DNA of 64,000 nt from Candidatus Ruthia magnifica str. Cm (Calyptogena magnifica). Its GTDB lineage: Bacteria > Pseudomonadota > Gammaproteobacteria > PS1 > Pseudothioglobaceae. The stretch lies in assembly GCF_000015105.1 (NCBI RefSeq), contig NC_008610.1, positions 62,001 through 126,000 on the forward strand, in the 5' to 3' direction. Below are positions 39,492 to 50,150 of this stretch, piece by piece. The position numbers and the translations under genes are program-made. A model generated the notes under the pieces. That model ran no database searches, was not told the origin of the DNA, and saw only the letters and a program-made list of their open reading frames with translations. The first letter of the stretch is position 1. Every line of letters starts with the position of its first letter.

Positions 39492-40700
39492 ATGACAAAA
39501 TTGGTCCCACCACATGGAAGTGACACATTAAAGTCTCTAGCACTAGAGGGTAATGCTTTAACAGTTGAGTTAGAAAGAGCAAAATTACTACCAAAAATTA
39601 ACTGCTCTTCAAGGGAAGAGGGTGATATCATTATGATGGGGGTTGGCGGTTTTACACCGTTAGAAGGCTTTATGGGTAAGGCAGATTGGCAGAGTGTTTG
39701 TGATAATATGACCATAGAAAGTGGTTTATTTTGGCCAATTCCTATTACATTATCTACTGATAATGAAGGAGTTAACCAGGGGGATGAAGTTGCCTTGGTC
39801 AATGGTGAAACGGATGAAATTATCGCAACCATGGTCATCAGTGAAAAGTATTCAATTGATAAGACCCATGAGTGCAATACCGTTTATAAAACAACTGAAA
39901 TAGAGCATCCAGGGGTTGTCATGGTAATGGCTCAAGGCAAATATAATCTTGCTGGATCTATTAAAGTATTGTCAGATGGTGGTTTTCCTGAAAAGTATAG
40001 TAGTTTATACATGACGCCTATGGAGACTCGTGCTTATTTTGATGACAAAGGCTGGAAAACAGTTGCAGCATTTCAAACACGTAATCCAATGCATCGTTCA
40101 CATGAATACTTGGTTAAGATTGCAGTGGAGGTTTGTGATGGCGTTATGATTCACTCAGTATTAGGTAATCTTAAAGCCGGTGATATTCCTGCTAATGTGC
40201 GTTCAGAAGCAATTTCAGTATTAATCGAAAACTATTTTGTAGATAATACTATTCTACAATCTGGCTACCCATTAGACATGCGTTATGCAGGTCCTCGTGA
40301 GGCATTATTACATGCATTATTCAGACAAAACTATGGTTGTTCACACCTGATTGTTGGTCGTGACCATGCTGGTATTGATGATTATTACGGCCCATTTGAT
40401 GCGCATAACATCTTTGATGAAATTGCTGATGATGCGCTGATGACAAAAGCGCTAAAGATTGATTGGACATTTTGGTGTCATAAATGTGGTGGCATGTCTT
40501 CAATGAAAACCTGTCCTCATAGTGCAGAAGATCGTGCACTGCTTTCAGGCACTAAAGTTCGTAAGATGCTTTCTGATAGTGAAGATTTGCCAGAGACTTT
40601 TTCTCGACCTGAAGTGGCTAAAGTTTTACAAGCTTATTATGCGGGTATTAAGGATGAAGATAAAGTAGAAATTAAGCTGAACGGACACTCAGCAAAATAA
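39492..40700 (+). CDS. sat: Sulfate adenylyltransferase (ATP sulfurylase), dissimilatory type
   Basis: In sulfur oxidation it makes ATP and sulfate from APS and PPi. The active-site motif [11 protein letters not shown] starts at Gln195, [19 protein letters not shown] and the C-terminal [10 protein letters not shown] block are present, and a [15 protein letters not shown] cysteine cluster suggests bound zinc. The 402 residues match the homo-oligomeric Sat of sulfur oxidisers and sulfate reducers, not the CysDN type. aprMBA follows, so the two steps of reverse sulfate reduction lie side by side. The gene has its own -10 region. Confidence 0.97.
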
Positions 40701-40896: not shown

Positions 40897-41766
40897 ATGA
40901 TCGACATCAATTCAACACCAATTACTAGTTTATTAGTAGAAGGTATTTCATACGTAGACATGCAAATATATGTCATCATCATGATTGCCCTAGTGGTTGT
41001 TATGACGGCATTAGATTTGCTACATAAGAAAAGTGCAACTTACTTTTTCAATACAGCGGCAAAGGCTGACAAAGATTTAGCTGCAGGTGATGCGCCATGT
41101 TCATTGGGCAAAGAAGAAGACAGACTTAAGGTATTAAGCGCTGGCGATAAAGTAAATATATTAGCAAGTACAGTTGTAGTGGACGTTGTAACAGCTGGTG
41201 AATTTAGCAATGGGCTTCGTAGATTTGTACATATTTTAACTATGTGGGGTTTCATTTTCTTTAATGCCTCAACTGCAATCATTATTTTTGGTACACAAGA
41301 AACTCAGGTATTAGCGCAAGTATGGAATGTTGGCGCAATCATGTTATTTATTGGTACATTTTGGTATTGGTTTGGCTTCAAAGTAGATAGCCAAGCAGAA
41401 GGTTATTCGTGGACAAAAATTATTCTTAAAAGAGATATGTTTAGTTTATCATTAATGGCAACTTCAGTAACTGCACTAGGTTGGAATATCTACGGTGGTG
41501 GTATTGGTGTGTGGTTTATCTTAGTTCTTTTTTCTACTACGTTTCTATTTGGTGGCGTATATTGGTCTAAATTTTCTCATATGTTCTTCAAACCTGCTGC
41601 TGCATACAATAGGCGTATTATCAAAGCTAATGGTACAAACGAGAACTTGCCTCACGAGACAAGAGACGACGTATGGCAACAAAATAGACATTCTATGGGG
41701 CTTCTAAAAGATGCACCGATGAATATGGGTCTTGGTATTAAGCGTGAAGCGCCTAAGCACTACTAA
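40897..41766 (+). CDS. aprM: AprM membrane protein, putative anchor for APS reductase
   Basis: A 289-residue membrane protein with about five helices (VIIMIALVVVMTALDLL; FVHILTMWGFIFFNAST; VGAIMLFIGTFWYWFGF; LSLMATSVTALGWNIY; WFILVLFSTTFLFGG). It lies directly before aprB and aprA with the same order as aprMBA of Allochromatium-type sulfur oxidisers. AprM is thought to pass electrons from APS reductase to quinone, in place of the QmoABC complex. No haem-binding pattern is obvious. A strong Shine-Dalgarno sequence precedes ATG 40897. Confidence 0.88.
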   Translation: MIDINSTPITSLLVEGISYVDMQIYVIIMIALVVVMTALDLLHKKSATYFFNTAAKADKDLAAGDAPCSLGKEEDRLKVLSAGDKVNILASTVVVDVVTAGEFSNGLRRFVHILTMWGFIFFNASTAIIIFGTQETQVLAQVWNVGAIMLFIGTFWYWFGFKVDSQAEGYSWTKIILKRDMFSLSLMATSVTALGWNIYGGGIGVWFILVLFSTTFLFGGVYWSKFSHMFFKPAAAYNRRIIKANGTNENLPHETRDDVWQQNRHSMGLLKDAPMNMGLGIKREAPKHY

Positions 41767-41797: not shown

Positions 41798-42277
41798 ATG
41801 CCAACTTTTGTATATATGACTCGTTGTGATGGTTGTGGACATTGTGTAGATATCTGCCCATCTAACATTATGCACATTGATGATAAATATCGTCGTGCTT
41901 ATAATATTGAACCAAACATGTGTTGGGAGTGTTATTCGTGTGTTAAGGCATGTCCACATCAGGCAATTGATGTTCGTGGTTATGCAGATTTTGCACCACT
42001 AGGACACAGCGTTCGCGTTATTCGTGATGAAGAGAAGGGCACCATTGCATGGAGAGTTAAGTTTCGTGACGGTCGTGTCAAGAACTTTTTATCGCCAATT
42101 ACGACTCAACCATGGGGAACCAAGATTCCTGATTTTAGAAATGAGCCTGAGCCTAGTGACGACATGCGTAACTCGCAGTTATTGGCATTTGAGCCTAAAT
42201 ATATTCGTATGGATGATGGTGATATTCATACGTTAGAATCTAACGGTTTGAAATTTAAAGAAGGAGTGTACTACTAA
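41798..42277 (+). CDS. aprB: Adenylylsulfate reductase beta subunit
   Basis: Iron-sulfur subunit of APS reductase. The first 4Fe-4S ligands are Cys10, 13, 16 and 20 (RCDGCGHCVDICPSNIMHI); the second set is Cys42, 45, 48 and 52 (CWECYSCVKACPHQAIDV). The C-terminal tail that wraps AprA is present. Length 159 is normal. The aprA ATG overlaps its stop by one base, so the subunits are translationally coupled. Confidence 0.97.
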   Translation: MPTFVYMTRCDGCGHCVDICPSNIMHIDDKYRRAYNIEPNMCWECYSCVKACPHQAIDVRGYADFAPLGHSVRVIRDEEKGTIAWRVKFRDGRVKNFLSPITTQPWGTKIPDFRNEPEPSDDMRNSQLLAFEPKYIRMDDGDIHTLESNGLKFKEGVYY

Positions 42278-44160
42278 TGGGTATTAAAACAATTGTAGAA
42301 GACAATATTGATATTTTAGTTGTTGGTGCTGGTTTAGGTGGTACAGGTGCCGCTTATGAGGCTAGATATTGGGGTCGTAATAAAAAAATTATCATTGCAG
42401 AAAAAGCAAATATTAACCGTTCAGGTGCTGTTGCTCAAGGTTTATACGCGATTAACTGTTATATGGGCACTCGTTTCGGTGAGAATAATCCTGAAGACCA
42501 CGTGCGTTATGCGCGTATGGATTTAATGGGTATAGTTCGTGAAGACTTGCTGTTTGACATGGCTCGCCATGTTGACTCTGCAGTGCATAAGTTTGAAGAA
42601 TGGGGCCTTCCATTGATGAAGGATCCTAAAAGAGAAGACATTGGTGCTTACATGCGTGAAGGTCGTTGGCAGATTATGATTCACGGTGAATCATATAAGC
42701 CTATTGTTGCTGAAGCTGCAACTAAGCAAGTTGATAAAGTTTACAACCGTATTATGGTTACCCATTTGCTAATGGATGACGCACAAGAAAATCGTATTGC
42801 TGGCGCTGTTGGTTTTAACGTTCGTACTGGTAATTATCATGTATTTAAGTCTAAGACTACTATTGTTGGTGCTGGTGGTGCGTCTAATATCTTTAAGCCT
42901 CGTTCAGTGGGCGAAGGTATGGGTCGTGTATGGTATGCGCCATGGTCTTCTGGGTCTGCATATGGCTTACTAATTGAAGCTGGTGCGAAGATGACACAAA
43001 TGGAGAACCGTATCGTTCTTGCTAGGTTTAAAGATGGTTATGGCCCTGTTGGCGCATATTTCTTACATCTTAAAACCTATACTCAAAATGGCTATGGTGA
43101 CGAGTATGAATCTAAATGGTTCCCAGCACTATCGAAAATGGTAGGTAAAGAATATCTAGATACAGAGGGTCAGCATTTGTCTCATAAGCCAATTCCAACT
43201 TGTTTGCGTAATCATGCATTTATCAGTGAGGTAAATGCTGGTCGTGGTCCAATTCACATGGTAACAATGGAGGCATTTCAAGACCCTCATTTAGAAGAAG
43301 TTGGTTGGGAAAACTTCTTAGGTATGACGGTTGGTCAAGCAGTACTCTGGGCGGCAACAGACGTTGATCCTAAATACGAAAATCCTGAATTAACAACGTC
43401 TGAGCCATATGTAATGGGCTCACATGCCACTGGTTGCGGTGCATGGTGTTCAGGTCCTGAGGACGTCTCTCCTGATGAATATTTTTGGGGTTATAATCGT
43501 ATGACAACAGTAGACGGTTTGTTTGGTGCAGGTGATACTGTTGGTGGTACGCCACATGCATTCTCATCAGGCTCATTTACCGAGGGTCGTTTGGCCGCTA
43601 AAGCGGCTTGTAAGTACATTGATGACGGTAAAGCAGAAGGGATTAGAGTATCTGACAAGCAAATTGCTGAGCGTAAAGAACAAATCTTTAAACCTTTAGA
43701 AAATTATACAATTGGTCGTAATGAAATTGTTGCTGGCACAGTATCGCCAAGTTACATTTTGCCAATGAGTGGATTACAACGTTTGCAAAAGCTTATGGAT
43801 GAATATTGTGGTGGTGTTACTGTTTCTTATGTAACTAACGACAAATTGCTTAATATAGGCTTGAAGAAATTAGCTATTTTAGAAGAAGATTTAGAGCACA
43901 TTGGTGCAGAAGATTTTCATCAGTTGATGCGTGGGTGGGAGTTAAGACACCGCCATCGCACTTCTGAATGTGTGACTCAGCATACCTTGTTCCGTAAAGA
44001 AACTCGCTGGCCTGGTTACTATTATCGTGGTGACGCTATGAAATTAGATGATAAAAACTGGCATGTATTGACAGTGTCTCATCGTGATCGTGTTACTGGT
44101 AAATATACATTAGAGAAGGCGCCTTGTTACCATTTAGTTGGTGAAAAAGATGAAAAATAG
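42277..44160 (+). CDS. aprA: Adenylylsulfate reductase alpha subunit
   Basis: FAD-containing catalytic subunit; in the oxidative direction it converts sulfite and AMP to APS. The N-terminal FAD motif ILVVGAGLGGTGAAYEARYW, NRSGAVAQGLYAINCYMG, VGAGGASNIFKPRSVGEGMG and GLFGAGDTVGGTPHAFSSGS are all kept, with the C-terminal GWELRHRHRTSECVTQHTLF region. Length 627 fits AprA of sulfur oxidisers. It forms the operon aprMBA, followed by three small genes. Confidence 0.98.
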   Translation: MGIKTIVEDNIDILVVGAGLGGTGAAYEARYWGRNKKIIIAEKANINRSGAVAQGLYAINCYMGTRFGENNPEDHVRYARMDLMGIVREDLLFDMARHVDSAVHKFEEWGLPLMKDPKREDIGAYMREGRWQIMIHGESYKPIVAEAATKQVDKVYNRIMVTHLLMDDAQENRIAGAVGFNVRTGNYHVFKSKTTIVGAGGASNIFKPRSVGEGMGRVWYAPWSSGSAYGLLIEAGAKMTQMENRIVLARFKDGYGPVGAYFLHLKTYTQNGYGDEYESKWFPALSKMVGKEYLDTEGQHLSHKPIPTCLRNHAFISEVNAGRGPIHMVTMEAFQDPHLEEVGWENFLGMTVGQAVLWAATDVDPKYENPELTTSEPYVMGSHATGCGAWCSGPEDVSPDEYFWGYNRMTTVDGLFGAGDTVGGTPHAFSSGSFTEGRLAAKAACKYIDDGKAEGIRVSDKQIAERKEQIFKPLENYTIGRNEIVAGTVSPSYILPMSGLQRLQKLMDEYCGGVTVSYVTNDKLLNIGLKKLAILEEDLEHIGAEDFHQLMRGWELRHRHRTSECVTQHTLFRKETRWPGYYYRGDAMKLDDKNWHVLTVSHRDRVTGKYTLEKAPCYHLVGEKDEK

Positions 44161-44230: not shown

Positions 44231-44581
44231 ATGAATATTATTGATAAAACAGATGAGGAGATTTTAGCAATTGCGAGCCCAATGTGGGATGACTTAGTTA
44301 AATATTCTAATAATAGTAATTACGGCGCTTTTAGTCGTCATTTTTCAGAGGATTTTTTGCGTGGTGCCAATGAAATTGAAATGGGAAAACAATTTGCTCG
44401 TAGTGAACTAACTAAGGGTCTTGAGAAAAATGCAGGATATTTGGGTATGATCCGTCGTGGTCAGTATGTGACTGTATTGTATAAGCAAACTCACTCTAAA
44501 AAAGAAGGTGAATACTTAGGAAGGCTTGTACTTGGTTATGAAGATGATGTGGTTAAGATTTTTGGCACAACAATTTTTTAA
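44231..44581 (+). CDS. Conserved small protein linked to aprMBA, unknown function
   Basis: A 116-residue soluble protein with no signal peptide. The pattern of an N-terminal helix (DEEILAIASPMWDDLVKYSN), a middle helical part and C-terminal strands (MIRRGQYVTVLYKQTHSK, YLGRLVLGYEDDVVKIFG) recalls the small NTF2/SnoaL-like cone fold, but I cannot name a family. It lies 70 bases after aprA and 5 bases before the SlyD-like gene, so the three small genes look like an extension of the apr operon. Codon use is like that of the neighbours. Confidence 0.65.
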   Translation: MNIIDKTDEEILAIASPMWDDLVKYSNNSNYGAFSRHFSEDFLRGANEIEMGKQFARSELTKGLEKNAGYLGMIRRGQYVTVLYKQTHSKKEGEYLGRLVLGYEDDVVKIFGTTIF

Positions 44582-44586
44582 AAGTT

Positions 44587-45093
44587 GTGAATAATGTTAT
44601 TCAAGAAGCTAAATATGTTGAGCTTATCTATAAAGTTATTGATAAAAAAACAGGCAATGTCTTTTCAGAAATTGAGTATCCAGTCGGCTATGTGCACGGT
44701 GTTAATGATACACTAGGTAAACAAGTTATTTCTGAGCTAGAAGGCAGAAAGCAAGGCGATATCCTTGAAGTTAACATTGATGTAGAAAAAATCTATGGAT
44801 CTCGTGACGAAACTTTAGTTTTTATTGATAAAATTGAAAACGTTCCACTAGAATATCAAAAAATCGGTGCCAAAGTTGTTATGGAAAATTCCAAGGGAGA
44901 CTCTAAGGAATTTTTAGTAACTAAGGTAGATGATAAAACAGTCACCATTGATGGTAATAATCTGCTTTGTGGCCGTGAAGTTAAGTTTTTGCTTGAAATT
45001 CTTTTAGTGCGTGATGCAACGGATGAAGAAATAGAAGCGGGCGGCATGATAGAGAAGCAATCAGATATAGAACAATTATTAACAGTGCATTAA
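44587..45093 (+). CDS. SlyD-like FKBP-type peptidyl-prolyl isomerase
   Basis: A 168-residue protein that follows SlyD in layout: VELIYKVIDKKTGNVFSEIE, YPVGYVHGVNDTLGKQVISE with LEGRKQGD, the insert-in-flap region, and the closing VTIDGNNLLCGREVKFLLEI with RDATDEEIEAGG. SlyD relatives are folding helpers and metal-binding chaperones; the histidine-rich tail of E. coli SlyD is missing, so a nickel role is unlikely. The start must be GTG 44587. It sits between two unknown genes after aprA, which suggests a role in folding or assembly of the Apr proteins (inference). Confidence 0.8.
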   Translation: MNNVIQEAKYVELIYKVIDKKTGNVFSEIEYPVGYVHGVNDTLGKQVISELEGRKQGDILEVNIDVEKIYGSRDETLVFIDKIENVPLEYQKIGAKVVMENSKGDSKEFLVTKVDDKTVTIDGNNLLCGREVKFLLEILLVRDATDEEIEAGGMIEKQSDIEQLLTVH

Positions 45094-45095
45094 TT

Positions 45096-45455
45096 ATGAG
45101 TATTGACTTTACAGAATTAGAAATAAAGACCATTCAAAGTGCGGTTGATCGTCGTTGGAGAAAAGAGAAAATTGAGGCTAATTTAGCTAATATTGAAATT
45201 ACCAAAGAAGGTGAAGACGAATCAACGTTTACCCCAGCGGTTGTTTGGGAAGATGAAAACTCAACTTTTATTATTTTAAAAATTGGTGTATTTTCCTACA
45301 AAAGTTTCTTTTATTATTTGACTGATCAGCGTTTTGACACTGGCGTTCCTGAATATAACGATTTGTACGAATGTGCGAATAAATTATTAAAAGTACAAGC
45401 GGATTTTATGCTAAGTAAAAATATCAAAGATTTAGGTTTACATATTCAAAAATAA
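45096..45455 (+). CDS. Conserved small protein at the end of the apr operon, unknown function
   Basis: A 119-residue soluble protein starting 2 bases after the SlyD-like gene. It is acidic in the middle (KEGEDESTFTPAVVWEDENS) with a hydrophobic strand-rich centre (TFIILKIGVFSYKSFFYYL) and a helical C-terminus (YECANKLLKVQADFMLSKNI). No motif I recognise. Close spacing indicates co-translation with the SlyD-like protein. The next gene, hppA, converges on it across about 100 bases in which I see no strong terminator. Confidence 0.65.
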   Translation: MSIDFTELEIKTIQSAVDRRWRKEKIEANLANIEITKEGEDESTFTPAVVWEDENSTFIILKIGVFSYKSFFYYLTDQRFDTGVPEYNDLYECANKLLKVQADFMLSKNIKDLGLHIQK

Positions 45456-45557: not shown

Positions 45558-47558
45558 TTACAGAAAAGGAATAATCATAATTGCAACAATGTTAATAATC
45601 TTAATTAATGGATTAATAGCAGGACCTGCTGTATCTTTGTATGGGTCGCCCACTGTATCACCAGTAACAGCAGCTTTATGAGTATCTGAGCCTTTACCAC
45701 CAAAGTGACCGTCTTCGATATATTTTTTAGCGTTGTCCCATGCGCCACCACCCGTGGTCATTGAGATTGCAACAAAAATACCCGTTACGATAGAACCGAT
45801 TAGTAACCCGCCTAGTGCTTCAGCGCCTAATAGCAAGCCAACGATAACTGGAAATGCAATTGGTAGAATAGAAGGTAATATCATTTCTTTAATGGCAGAT
45901 TTGGTCAGCATATCAACCGCTTTAGAATAATCAGGTTTTTGTGTGTAATTCATAATATCTGGAATTTCTCTAAATTGACGACGAACTTCATTGACAATAT
46001 CGCCTGCAGCACGACCAACAGCCTCCATTGCCATTGCACCAAATAAATAAGGCACTAAACCACCTAAGAATAAACCAATGATTACTTTATGGTTAGATAA
46101 GTCAAATGCAATATCTTTGAATTGCTCAATAGTACGTAATTCATTAGTAAAGTCAGCAAACAATACCAATGTCGCTAAGCCGGCAGAAGCAATTGCATAA
46201 CCTTTGGTTACCGCCTTAGTGGTGTTGCCAACGGCATCTAGAGGATCAGTAATTTTACGAATTTTTTCTGGAAGTTCGGCCATTTCCGCGATACCACCTG
46301 CATTGTCCGTAATTGGGCCGTAAGCATCAAGTGCGACAATAACACCTGTCATTGATAGCATAGCCGTTGCTGCAATTGCAATGGCGTATAAGCCACCCAG
46401 TTCATACGCACCCCAAATACTTGAGCATACTGCAAGTACAGGAAGGGAGGTAGATTTCATACTCAAGCCAATACCGGCAATAACGTTAGTACCATCACCT
46501 GTGAGTGATGCTTCGGCAACATGTTGCACAGGGCTATATTCAGTTGATGTGTAATATTCTGTTATCACAACCATAACAGCTGTTAGCACTAAACCAATGA
46601 GTGATGCGTAGAATAAATTTATTTCCATATTCATGTGATTGGTGATAAAATAAAAAGCAATCGCAGCCATGCCTGCTGAGGCGATTAAGCCTTTATATAG
46701 AGCGCCCATGATAGAACCATTATCGGAGACTTTAACAAAAAAAGTACCTACAATAGAGGTAATAATTGAAGCTGCACCTAAAGCCAGTGGATACAAAATA
46801 GCATTATCGCCCAAGCCTAGAACGCCTGCAAGCATCATAGTTGCAACAATAGTCACCGCGTAAGTTTCAAATAAGTCAGCAGCCATGCCTGCACAATCAC
46901 CAACGTTGTCACCAACGTTGTCAGCTATAACTGCAGGATTGCGCGGATCGTCTTCTGGAATTCCAGCTTCAACTTTACCAACAATGTCAGCACCAACATC
47001 AGCACCTTTAGTGAATATGCCACCACCTAAACGTGCGAAAATTGAAATGAGTGAGCCGCCAAATGCAAGACCAATAAGAGCGTGCAATGCGTCTTTTTGT
47101 GCAACACCATATTCAATCATACCGGCGTAGTAACCAGAAACACCCAATAGTGCCAAACCAACAACCAACATACCTGTAACAGCGCCACCTTTAAAAGCAA
47201 CTTGAAAAGCAGTATTCATGCCGTTATTGGCTGCTTGCGCTGTGCGAGAATTAGATTTAACTGATACGTTCATGCCGATGTAGCCTGTTACACCTGACAA
47301 TACTGCACCAACTAAAAATCCAAGACCAATGGTAACGCCTAAAAAGTAAGTAATGATGATAAGCAAAACAACACCTACTATGGCAATGGTTGAATATTGA
47401 CGATTTAGGTAAGCATTTGCACCTTGTGTAATTGCATCTGAAATTTCTTTCATTTTGTCACTACCTGCAGGTTGTTTGTTAATCCAAATAATTGTAAATA
47501 GACCGTATAAAACAGCGATAATTGATGCCGAAATGGCAAGGATAAGAATTGTATCCAT
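45558..47558 (-). CDS. hppA: Membrane-bound proton-translocating pyrophosphatase
   Basis: Couples PPi hydrolysis to proton pumping, or makes PPi from the proton gradient. About 16 membrane helices are visible over 666 residues. The PPi site blocks [20 protein letters not shown] and [20 protein letters not shown], and the C-terminal [20 protein letters not shown] are intact. The key motif [13 protein letters not shown] has Lys448 where potassium-dependent enzymes have Ala, so this should be the K+-independent, H+-pumping class. A Shine-Dalgarno sequence (AAAGGAG) precedes the start. It follows adk and pfp on the same strand. Confidence 0.97.
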
Positions 47559-47931
47559 TATTTTATTTTCTCCTTTTGGTTGTGTGCAAATTTTCTTCAG
47601 GATTGATTATAGTTAATAATTGCCTGTATAGTAAGGGGATAATCTAATAATTTAATAGAATCGGTTTATGTCAATTATTGAGTGCTAGTTCTTGTTCCAA
47701 TATTTGGTTTTAATACCATGACCTAAATCTATTTCAATTAAGCGAGATCTAAGTTTAAGTAGTTTTTTAATGAGGGAGTGGTTGGCTTTCATAAGCTTAA
47801 AACGTCTTGGATATGGTTAATTACGACGGTTAAAAGTTGTTACCAATTGAATTTTGTAAAAATGGTAACAATGAGTCTATTTTCATCATTGCGATAAGTA
47901 GGCTGCTTAAATGTGGGTTTACTAGCAACAA

Positions 47932-48853
<922 letters not shown>

Positions 48854-48905
48854 TTATTTAATATTTTTTTGTTAAAAAAGAGACCTTGGCTCCTTGTAGT
48901 AATAC

Positions 48906-50150
48906 CTAAATTTCGAATGTGGGTAATTTTTTATCCGTCATTATTTTTTTCATCACCACATAATCAGGCAAGCCATTTTTGTATGGTGGATAGTCTTCAC
49001 CTTCGATAAGTGGTTGTAAATATTCACGGCAAGCGTCAGTAATACCAAAACCATCGTTAGAAATGTAATTCATGGGCATCATTTTTTCAACGTTAGCGAC
49101 ATCTTTTAACTCACCTGAGCCAATCTCCCAAGTGTAGGGATTATTTGAAGTTCGAATAATGGTAGGCATGACTGAATTTTTACCTTCAAGTGCCATGTTA
49201 ACAGCTGCTACACCTAATGCATAAGCTTGTTCAACATCGGATTTTGAGGCTAAGTGACGAGCAGCACGTTGCAAGTAATCTGCAACTGCCCAGTGGTATT
49301 TATAACCCAAGGTATCTTTGATTAAATTAGCAACAACAGGTGCTGCACCACCAAGTTGTGCATTACCAAAGTCATCATGAGTGCCTTGTTCTGCCAGGAA
49401 ACAGCCATCTGGCCATTTTGCACCTTCGGATACAACGATTGTGCAGTAATTAAATTCTTTGACGTTTTTGTTAACTTTAGCTAAAAATTTCTTTTCATCA
49501 AAATCAACTTCTGGGAATAAAATCACCACAGGAATTGAATTATCAACCAATCCCCCTGCTGCTGCAATCCAACCCGCATGACGACCCATGACTTCAAGGA
49601 CAAAAATTTTAGTTGAAGTTGCTGCCATTGAGGCGACGTCAAAACTGGCTTCCATAATAGAAACAGCAATATATTTAGCAACCGAGCCAAAGCCAGGGCA
49701 ATTATCTGTAATTGGCAAATCATTATCCACTGTTTTAGGCACATGAATCGCCTGAATTGGGTAGCCCATTGATTTAGATAATTGAGATACCTTTAAGCAA
49801 GTATCTGCTGAATCACCACCGCCATTGTAAAAGAAATAACCAACATCATATTCTTTAAAGACTTCGATCAATCTTTCGTATTCAGCTTTGTTTGTCTCTA
49901 AAGATTTCATCTTATAACGACAAGAGCCAAAGCCACCAGAAGGGGTATGTTTTAAGGCTTTAATATCAGCATTAGATTCTTTAGAAGTATCAATTAAATT
50001 TTCAGTTAACGCGCCAATAATACCATTTTGACCTGCATATATCGTGCCGATTTTATCTGGATGTTTACGTACTGTTTCAATCACGCCACAAGCTGATGCA
50101 TTAATTACAGCAGTTACACCACCTGATTGTGCATAAAAAGCATTTTTCAT
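48906..50150 (-). CDS. pfp: Pyrophosphate-dependent 6-phosphofructokinase
   Basis: Reversible phosphotransfer between PPi and fructose 6-phosphate. The phosphoryl-donor loop reads GGGDS with Asp113 where ATP enzymes have Gly, and the catalytic loop reads VPKTVDND with Lys139 where ATP enzymes have Gly; both are the known marks of PPi specificity. MGRHAGWIAAAGGL is the substrate-binding block. The 414 residues fit the family used by methanotrophs and sulfur-oxidising symbionts. Such enzymes can also act on sedoheptulose bisphosphate and yield PPi in the Calvin cycle. It leads the strand pfp-adk-hppA. Confidence 0.93.
   Translation of the reverse strand: MKNAFYAQSGGVTAVINASACGVIETVRKHPDKIGTIYAGQNGIIGALTENLIDTSKESNADIKALKHTPSGGFGSCRYKMKSLETNKAEYERLIEVFKEYDVGYFFYNGGGDSADTCLKVSQLSKSMGYPIQAIHVPKTVDNDLPITDNCPGFGSVAKYIAVSIMEASFDVASMAATSTKIFVLEVMGRHAGWIAAAGGLVDNSIPVVILFPEVDFDEKKFLAKVNKNVKEFNYCTIVVSEGAKWPDGCFLAEQGTHDDFGNAQLGGAAPVVANLIKDTLGYKYHWAVADYLQRAARHLASKSDVEQAYALGVAAVNMALEGKNSVMPTIIRTSNNPYTWEIGSGELKDVANVEKMMPMNYISNDGFGITDACREYLQPLIEGEDYPPYKNGLPDYVVMKKIMTDKKLPTFEI

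Follow-up and report, generated by a model that had tools for sequence, protein, structure and literature searches.

Two small genes that lie directly behind aprA, here called P1 and SlyL, probably encode helper proteins of the AprM-type APS reductase that have so far gone undescribed. Both are tied by position and by occurrence to the AprM-type apr operon in many bacterial families, and P3, the third small gene of the same row, belongs with an adjoining cluster of genes for a PPi-dependent phosphofructokinase and an ion-pumping pyrophosphatase. In many marine and symbiotic bacteria that oxidise sulfur, the final oxidation of the pathway is carried out by the AprM-type APS reductase. The window, that is, the whole stretch of 64,000 nucleotides that was analysed, carries the following features around this locus (coordinates are those of the window):

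39492..40700, + strand: sat, dissimilatory sulfate adenylyltransferase (NF003166, 522 bits, above the cut-off)
40897..41766, + strand: aprM, putative membrane anchor of the lineage-I APS reductase, preceding aprBA (role from the available parts of PMC2211403 and PMC3779200)
41798..42277, + strand: aprB, APS reductase beta subunit (TIGR02060, 202 bits, above the cut-off)
42277..44160, + strand: aprA, APS reductase alpha subunit (TIGR02061, 1039 bits, above the cut-off)
44231..44581, + strand: P1, 116 amino acids, ATG start, predicted to be NTF2-like, of no named family (from its linkage to aprA and an AlphaFold2 model)
44587..45093, + strand: SlyL, 168 amino acids, GTG start, SlyD-like protein lacking the metal-binding tail, partner of P1 (from SlyD homology and its place directly 3' of P1)
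45096..45455, + strand: P3, 119 amino acids, ATG start, outside any named family, placed with the pfp-hppA-adk cluster and not with apr
45558..47558, - strand: hppA, membrane ion-translocating pyrophosphatase (NF001951, 1120 bits, and TIGR01104, 870 bits, both above the cut-off)
48185..48835, - strand: adk, adenylate kinase (NF001379, 359 bits, above the cut-off)
48906..50150, - strand: pfp, PPi-dependent 6-phosphofructokinase (NF010675, 635 bits, above the cut-off)

A sequence-only reading of the window had taken the three small genes together for an extension of the apr operon. The spacing to which it pointed is borne out by the frame coordinates, the gaps aprA-P1, P1-SlyL and SlyL-P3 measuring 70, 5 and 2 bases, all on the + strand, and the genes hppA, adk and pfp (45558-50150, - strand) are convergent to P3. 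With P3 lying where the apr block meets the pfp-hppA-adk cluster, what looked like an extension of three genes is the place where two units join. The proposal thus holds for P1 and SlyL, on the strength of position and of occurrence in many families, and is not supported for P3, which elsewhere mostly adjoins pfp.

The frames of P1, SlyL and P3 are conserved among relatives and under purifying selection, in keeping with the earlier remark that P1 and P3, of 116 and 119 residues, are intact. When the window was compared with seven relatives, pN/pS ranged from 0.07 to 0.28 for P1, lower than for AprM in 7/7 comparisons, from 0.15 to 0.52 for SlyL and from 0.21 to 0.45 for P3. A chance origin of the frames was discarded: the mean longest + strand frame in 1000 mononucleotide shuffles of the segment was 49 codons, and 116 codons were reached in a single shuffle. 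A consensus scan recognized neither a promoter-like nor a terminator-like site in the 70-base gap between aprA and P1, but it was uninformative, since its 18 promoter matches, against 24.6 expected, are not above chance.

The order of these genes is conserved far beyond the window. A genome scan returned at least 578 relatives, of which 80 loci were examined; the titles of the named loci include Ruthia, Thioglobus, Sedimenticola, Gallionella, Sideroxydans and two Rhodospirillales/Rhodospirillaceae MAGs. An aprA gene lies at most 700 bases upstream of P1 in 76 of the 79 named loci offering at least 150 bases of upstream sequence, the exceptions being L111 (no aprA within 8 kb), L177 (aprA 1.46 kb away) and L131 (287 bases upstream only). 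Of the 60 named loci with at least 3.5 kb of sequence on the upstream side of P1, 59 have an aprM homologue there. SlyL follows P1 directly in all 77 named loci with room for it; P3 stands behind SlyL in 13 of 76 with room, and one further weak P3 match lies elsewhere in a locus.

Occurrence across genomes agrees with this arrangement. Among 58 relatives, P1 is present in 37, which are the same 37 that carry an aprA above the curated cut-off. Four members of the genus or family (G007, G015, G016 and G019) have no aprA above the cut-off and no P1 either; one of them, G007, belongs to the same genus and has a genome of 1.6 Mb. These genomes may have truly lost sulfite oxidation by the APS route or may be incomplete bins. 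In a sample of 369 genomes of the class, 111 of 125 aprA rows were used, 14 fragmentary rows being dropped, and they were divided into score bands chosen by the analyst. P1 stands behind aprA in 40/40 rows scoring at least 1000 bits, in 5/11 rows of 966-1000 bits and in 0/60 rows of 887-966 bits. In the high band, 39 copies lie 92-348 bases from aprA and the fortieth (G220) lies 1480 bases away. In the ten genomes that possess both a high- and a low-band aprA, P1 follows the high one only. Six of the 40 high-band gene neighbourhoods were inspected, and aprM is present in every one of them; the three inspected among the 60 low-band rows show an AprA of about 45% identity and no aprM. In the middle band, eight of the 11 neighbourhoods were inspected (G388, G075 and G384 left out). 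We take the high and low bands to correspond to lineages I and II, with aprM and qmo respectively, of Meyer and Kuever (as distinguished in the accessible part of PMC2211403).

The same survey viewed from the side of P1 comprises 60 rows, of which 47 are full-length (at least 160 bits), five are cut by a contig end and eight are distant paralogues. All 47 full-length copies, from 27 families, stand behind aprA; 45 of them follow a full-length aprA (one about 1.5 kb off) and two follow aprA fragments (G069 and G376). The five truncated copies (G123, G166, G272, G079 and G219) are cut on the aprA side. For G079, G166 and G219, no aprA was detected anywhere in the genome at E 1e-50; since the break is on the aprA side, a lost contig may account for this. 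G079 and G219 belong to one genus, and their contigs end inside P1 at the same model position (end of G079:C7, start of G219:C4), with SlyL intact and no aprA; the apr region may be repeated in these genomes, so that assembly broke there. The sequence-only reading had named homologues widespread in genomes lacking aprA as decisive against its proposal; in the samples searched, homologues of P1 and SlyL show no such spread.

Absence of P1 beside an aprA of this type was also observed. In G393, G215 and G202, aprBA is accompanied by an aprM homologue (truncated at a contig end in G393), yet neither P1 nor SlyL adjoins aprA, and P1 has no match anywhere in the genome. The AprM-type enzyme can therefore do without P1 and SlyL, which are not indispensable to it. 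The remaining aprA rows of 966-1000 bits that lack P1 belong to G293 and G182, both lineage-II-like, and to G388, of the same genus. In the class survey, the occurrence of P1 and SlyL is restricted to genomes with the AprM-type enzyme; the exceptions are G393, G215 and G202, which have aprM and aprBA but no P1, and G079, G166 and G219, whose P1 is cut by a contig end and for which no aprA was detected.

In a sample of 249 genomes of the phylum, 13 have a match to the P1 profile. Outside the class, all eight loci with a full-length P1 show the order aprA-P1-SlyL, and one more, cut at the contig start, retains P1-SlyL. In the same phylum sample, G489 has an aprA of 1006 bits and no P1. Distant paralogues of P1 exist away from apr, namely the eight rows of the class survey (L205-L212) and copies in G542, G570 and G450, with E values of about 7e-6 to 9e-21. 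Two of these (L206 and L208) have an RND-type efflux pair on one side and a TldD/PmbA-like gene on the other, and two others (L211 and L212) lie near a DsbB-like gene, the neighbours being as interpreted by us, and in the phylum sample no apr gene adjoins the distant paralogues L240 and L241. The fold family therefore has other roles as well.

The P1 protein itself belongs to no family that could be named, as had been supposed for P1 and P3: neither has a Pfam or NCBIfam match above the cut-off. The window's P1 gave no match in either collection at E up to 1, and 52 P1 members compared with Pfam reached 0.026 at best, the most frequent family being chlorite dismutase (seven members, best E 0.035). 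Searches against PDB sequences returned no informative match for P1 or P3, and no relatives of P1 were found in phage records or viral contigs. AprM, too, matches no family above the cut-off in Pfam or NCBIfam. An AlphaFold2 model of P1 built from 52 sequences (mean pLDDT 89, pTM 0.83) shows four helices followed by four strands, the N-terminal helices packing against an antiparallel sheet, and among solved structures it comes closest to NTF2-like or cystatin-like chains, with Z up to 11.7, so that an NTF2-like fold is predicted. The best natural chain is 2rgq (Z 11.0, 2.9 A, 110 residues, 8% identity), slightly outscored by two designed binders. Together with 4hyz (DUF3887) and 3hx8, it places the predicted fold within the NTF2-like/cystatin-like superfamily at Z 10.2-11.0 over 102-110 residues; P1 has no sequence-family match there, and at 8-12% identity no function is transferable. 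Neither of the P1 alignments (A1 and A3) contains a conserved Cys or His. Invariant in P1 are W19, N27, Y31, F38, N47, Q54, R75 and R76, together with an LGR.VLG strand and IF at 110-111. Distances of P1 correlate with those of AprA (0.71) and AprM (0.54; mirror-tree, n=54) no more strongly than those among other apr genes, so that these values do not single out P1 and carry no weight as support.

The middle gene was correctly recognized at the outset as SlyD-like and devoid of the metal-binding tail. SlyL matches the SlyD family PRK10737 of NCBIfam at 2.6e-17 (63.3 bits, below the equivalog cut-off of 174) and SlyD structures at 3.3e-15 by sequence; its profile matches 2k8i_A, a SlyD, at 2.7e-23 over profile positions 7-154, i.e. 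with homology across both the FKBP and the insert domains. Pfam gave a weak FKBP_C match in 2 of 14 members. SlyL is the sole match to the SlyD profile in the window's genome. SlyD is an FKBP-type isomerase and metallochaperone of the insert-in-flap type, to which SlyL aligns at positions 7-154 (E. coli) and 6-153 (T. thermophilus). It differs from SlyD in lacking the His/Cys tail (one Cys and two His in all; the final 20 residues include a single His and lack Cys), in a changed residue at the aligned Asp, where the register is uncertain, and in its score below the equivalog cut-off. The possibility that SlyL is an ordinary SlyD was discarded on account of that score and the missing tail. Two positions, an Asp and a Tyr, are those we take to be catalytic in SlyD isomerase: the Tyr position (Tyr70 of SlyL) holds Tyr in 74 and Phe in 4 of 78 sequences, and the position aligned with the Asp is occupied by Leu, Phe, Tyr or Val in 78/78, in a region of uncertain alignment register. 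SlyL has GNN in 77/78 sequences where SlyD has GNH. Residue 128 is a near-invariant Cys (77/78), in a GNNPLCG motif found where E. coli SlyD has GNHMLAG.

Profile scores separate SlyL from its relatives. Among the matches listed for 185 genomes, the 25 top matches score 248-277 bits and the next one 177, and all 25 of the top group come from genomes with P1. SlyL is a looser partner than P1, because two P1 genomes, G177 and G075, have no top-scoring SlyL among those matches. The class sample also has a second SlyD-like group, which scores roughly 120-177 bits against the SlyL profile and is common there (again among the matches listed). From their scores we read the matches of about 80-100 bits as ordinary SlyD and those of 177-120 bits as this second group. 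In G134, a second-group gene (L254:1183-1683) directly precedes P3 and pfp.

P3 has a different history. Its profile matches 37 of 185 class genomes (membership of this set was inferred from the handle numbering and agrees with the stated total), 35 of them outside the window's bacterial family; 32 of these 35 loci were fetched, G097, G167 and G191 being left out. In 25 of the 32, pfp lies beside P3 at 58-471 bases; hppA is present in 17, adk in 15 and any of the three in 26. P1 was found in none of these 32 loci and aprA in two, 7.6 and 11.8 kb away. By coordinates, pfp also lies within 180 bases of the P3 match in G097, G167 and G191, the match in G167 being a weak fragment. Six fetched stretches have P3 without pfp, hppA or adk (G045:C27, G137:C204, G068:C190, G212:C126, G151:C297 and G133:C14). 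All 37 P3 genomes possess pfp, which occurs in 140/185 overall; 36 of them have an aprA of some kind and 9 have P1 (Fisher p 0.07). P3 was seen behind SlyL only in the window's bacterial family. Its assignment to apr was discarded: since pfp adjoins it in most loci outside that family and P1 in none, and since pfp, hppA and adk follow it here, P3 is a partner of the PPi-phosphofructokinase/ion-pumping pyrophosphatase cluster that adjoins apr in the window's family alone. Searched on its own, P3 has no match above the cut-off in Pfam or NCBIfam; its AlphaFold2 model (pLDDT 84) gave a best Foldseek E of 0.099 and, in a second structural comparison, Z up to 9.3 to an actin-capping protein at 7% identity, which we leave uninterpreted. 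Such weak matches are no demonstration of a new fold.

Sat uses up PPi in the oxidative direction. The presence of P3 and the PPi cluster next to apr may for this reason still be metabolically sensible. A co-localisation of pfp (pfkA) and hppA in sulfur-oxidising bacteria, with a proposed saving of energy in the Calvin cycle, is described in PMC4949241 and PMC4287430. The window's P3 lies in such a pfkA-hppA cluster, as known from sulfur-oxidising symbionts; P3 or adk beside it go without mention in the available parts of both papers.

On balance, we consider it somewhat probable that the AprM-type operon includes P1 and SlyL as its fourth and fifth genes, which would be co-transcribed with aprMBA and act as dedicated assembly or docking factors of AprBA. 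SlyL, a SlyD-like chaperone with an altered-looking isomerase site, would hold nascent or cofactor-free AprA or AprB. P1, as a small soluble NTF2-like protein, would then bind the folded flavoprotein/iron-sulfur dimer and aid either its maturation or its docking on AprM. It would be a factor specific to the AprM type, of which the Qmo-linked enzyme would make no use. This role in maturation or docking is suggested by the restriction to the AprM type, by the slower evolution of P1 relative to AprM, by the SlyD-type partner and by the lack of redox-capable conserved residues in P1. According to the accessible part of PMC10653786, SlyD has proteins of Fe-S biogenesis among its binding partners in E. 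coli and H. pylori, which fits a chaperone beside a flavoenzyme with two [4Fe-4S] clusters. The aprMBA genes of Allochromatium vinosum are Alvin_1119-1121 (PMC3779200, in the part available), and by its locus number Alvin_1122 would be P1. Mutants in sat and apr have been published for A. vinosum DSM 180, in which APS reductase is reported to be dispensable. The available text of PMC11267869 lists Alvin_1122 as a conserved hypothetical protein with a log2FC of -2.73 on pyrite, in a study that reports suppression of Apr genes; Alvin_1118-1121 are not among the genes listed there.

The main competing explanation makes P1 a stoichiometric subunit or coupling protein between AprB and AprM, in docking or electron transfer, with SlyL folding P1 or the complex. 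We regard it as a serious possibility, if an unlikely one. The near 1:1 occurrence of P1 with high-scoring AprM-type aprA speaks for it, as does the slower evolution of P1 compared with AprM, and the electron partner of lineage-I Apr is given as unknown in the accessible portion of PMC2211403. However, P1 is unlikely to be an electron carrier because it has no conserved Cys or His (A1, A3) and belongs to no cofactor family; moreover, some genomes with aprM and aprBA dispense with P1, and the passages of the literature at hand on this enzyme name AprMBA only. P1 could instead be a regulator that adjusts the activity of Apr or Sat by sensing a small ligand (e.g. AMP, APS or sulfite) in its NTF2-like pocket. 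Binding of small ligands is frequent among NTF2-like folds, and several of the chains matched by the P1 model are designed or natural ligand-binding proteins, but a shared fold shows no function and we judge this idea quite improbable. Either alternative, subunit or regulator, would agree with the same observations.

Two further explanations concern the linkage rather than the protein. Gene order is kept for many genes among close relatives, and the association of P1 and SlyL with apr might be no more than inherited order without a shared task. This is very improbable in view of an order that recurs in 27 families of the class and in 8/8 loci outside it, of the ten genomes with both kinds of aprA in which P1 follows the high-scoring one, and of P3, which, unlike P1 and SlyL, does not stay. 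The least credible reading keeps the three genes together as a single extension of apr: P3 does lie close behind SlyL on the same strand in the window's family and in 13/76 named loci, and nearly all P3 genomes (36/37) have some aprA, but outside that family its neighbour is pfp (25/32 loci) and never P1 (0/32), and pfp accompanies it in 37/37 genomes against 9/37 for P1.

The assembly or docking role of P1 and SlyL can be extended to a bolder proposal, which we hold to be rather unlikely as a whole. P1 would be a soluble NTF2-like docking or coupling component of the native AprM-linked APS reductase in most lineage-I sulfur oxidisers, served by its own SlyD-derived chaperone, and P3 would regulate the PPi-phosphofructokinase and HppA, being co-expressed with Sat and Apr in the window's family. 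If this were true, P1 would help to explain how electrons leave AprB through AprM to the quinone pool without Qmo, and P3 would link the use of PPi in sulfur oxidation to a PPi-saving Calvin cycle in that family.

In the parts of the literature covered here, the operon of the AprM-type APS reductase is treated as sat-aprMBA only. P1 and SlyL provide concrete handles on this enzyme, P1 is a possible marker separating AprM-type from other apr loci, and the reassignment of P3 suggests that the PPi-dependent phosphofructokinase of sulfur oxidisers has a partner not yet described. A literature search covering parts of open papers found no description of P1 or SlyL behind aprA.

Comparison with known systems sets these genes in context. 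The QmoABC operon of sulfate reducers likewise links APS reductase to the membrane and ends with a gene for a hypothetical protein; this promoter-distal gene was reportedly studied by deletion by Zane et al. in 2010. It differs from the AprM-type operon in its redox partner, which is Qmo. The sat-aprMBA locus of A. vinosum has the same sat-aprM-aprB-aprA order and the same enzyme type as the window, whereas the genes behind aprA, conserved across families here, go unmentioned in the available parts of its description (PMC3779200; PMC2211403). What the present comparison adds to the known apr operon is two undescribed conserved companions and a third gene reassigned to another cluster.
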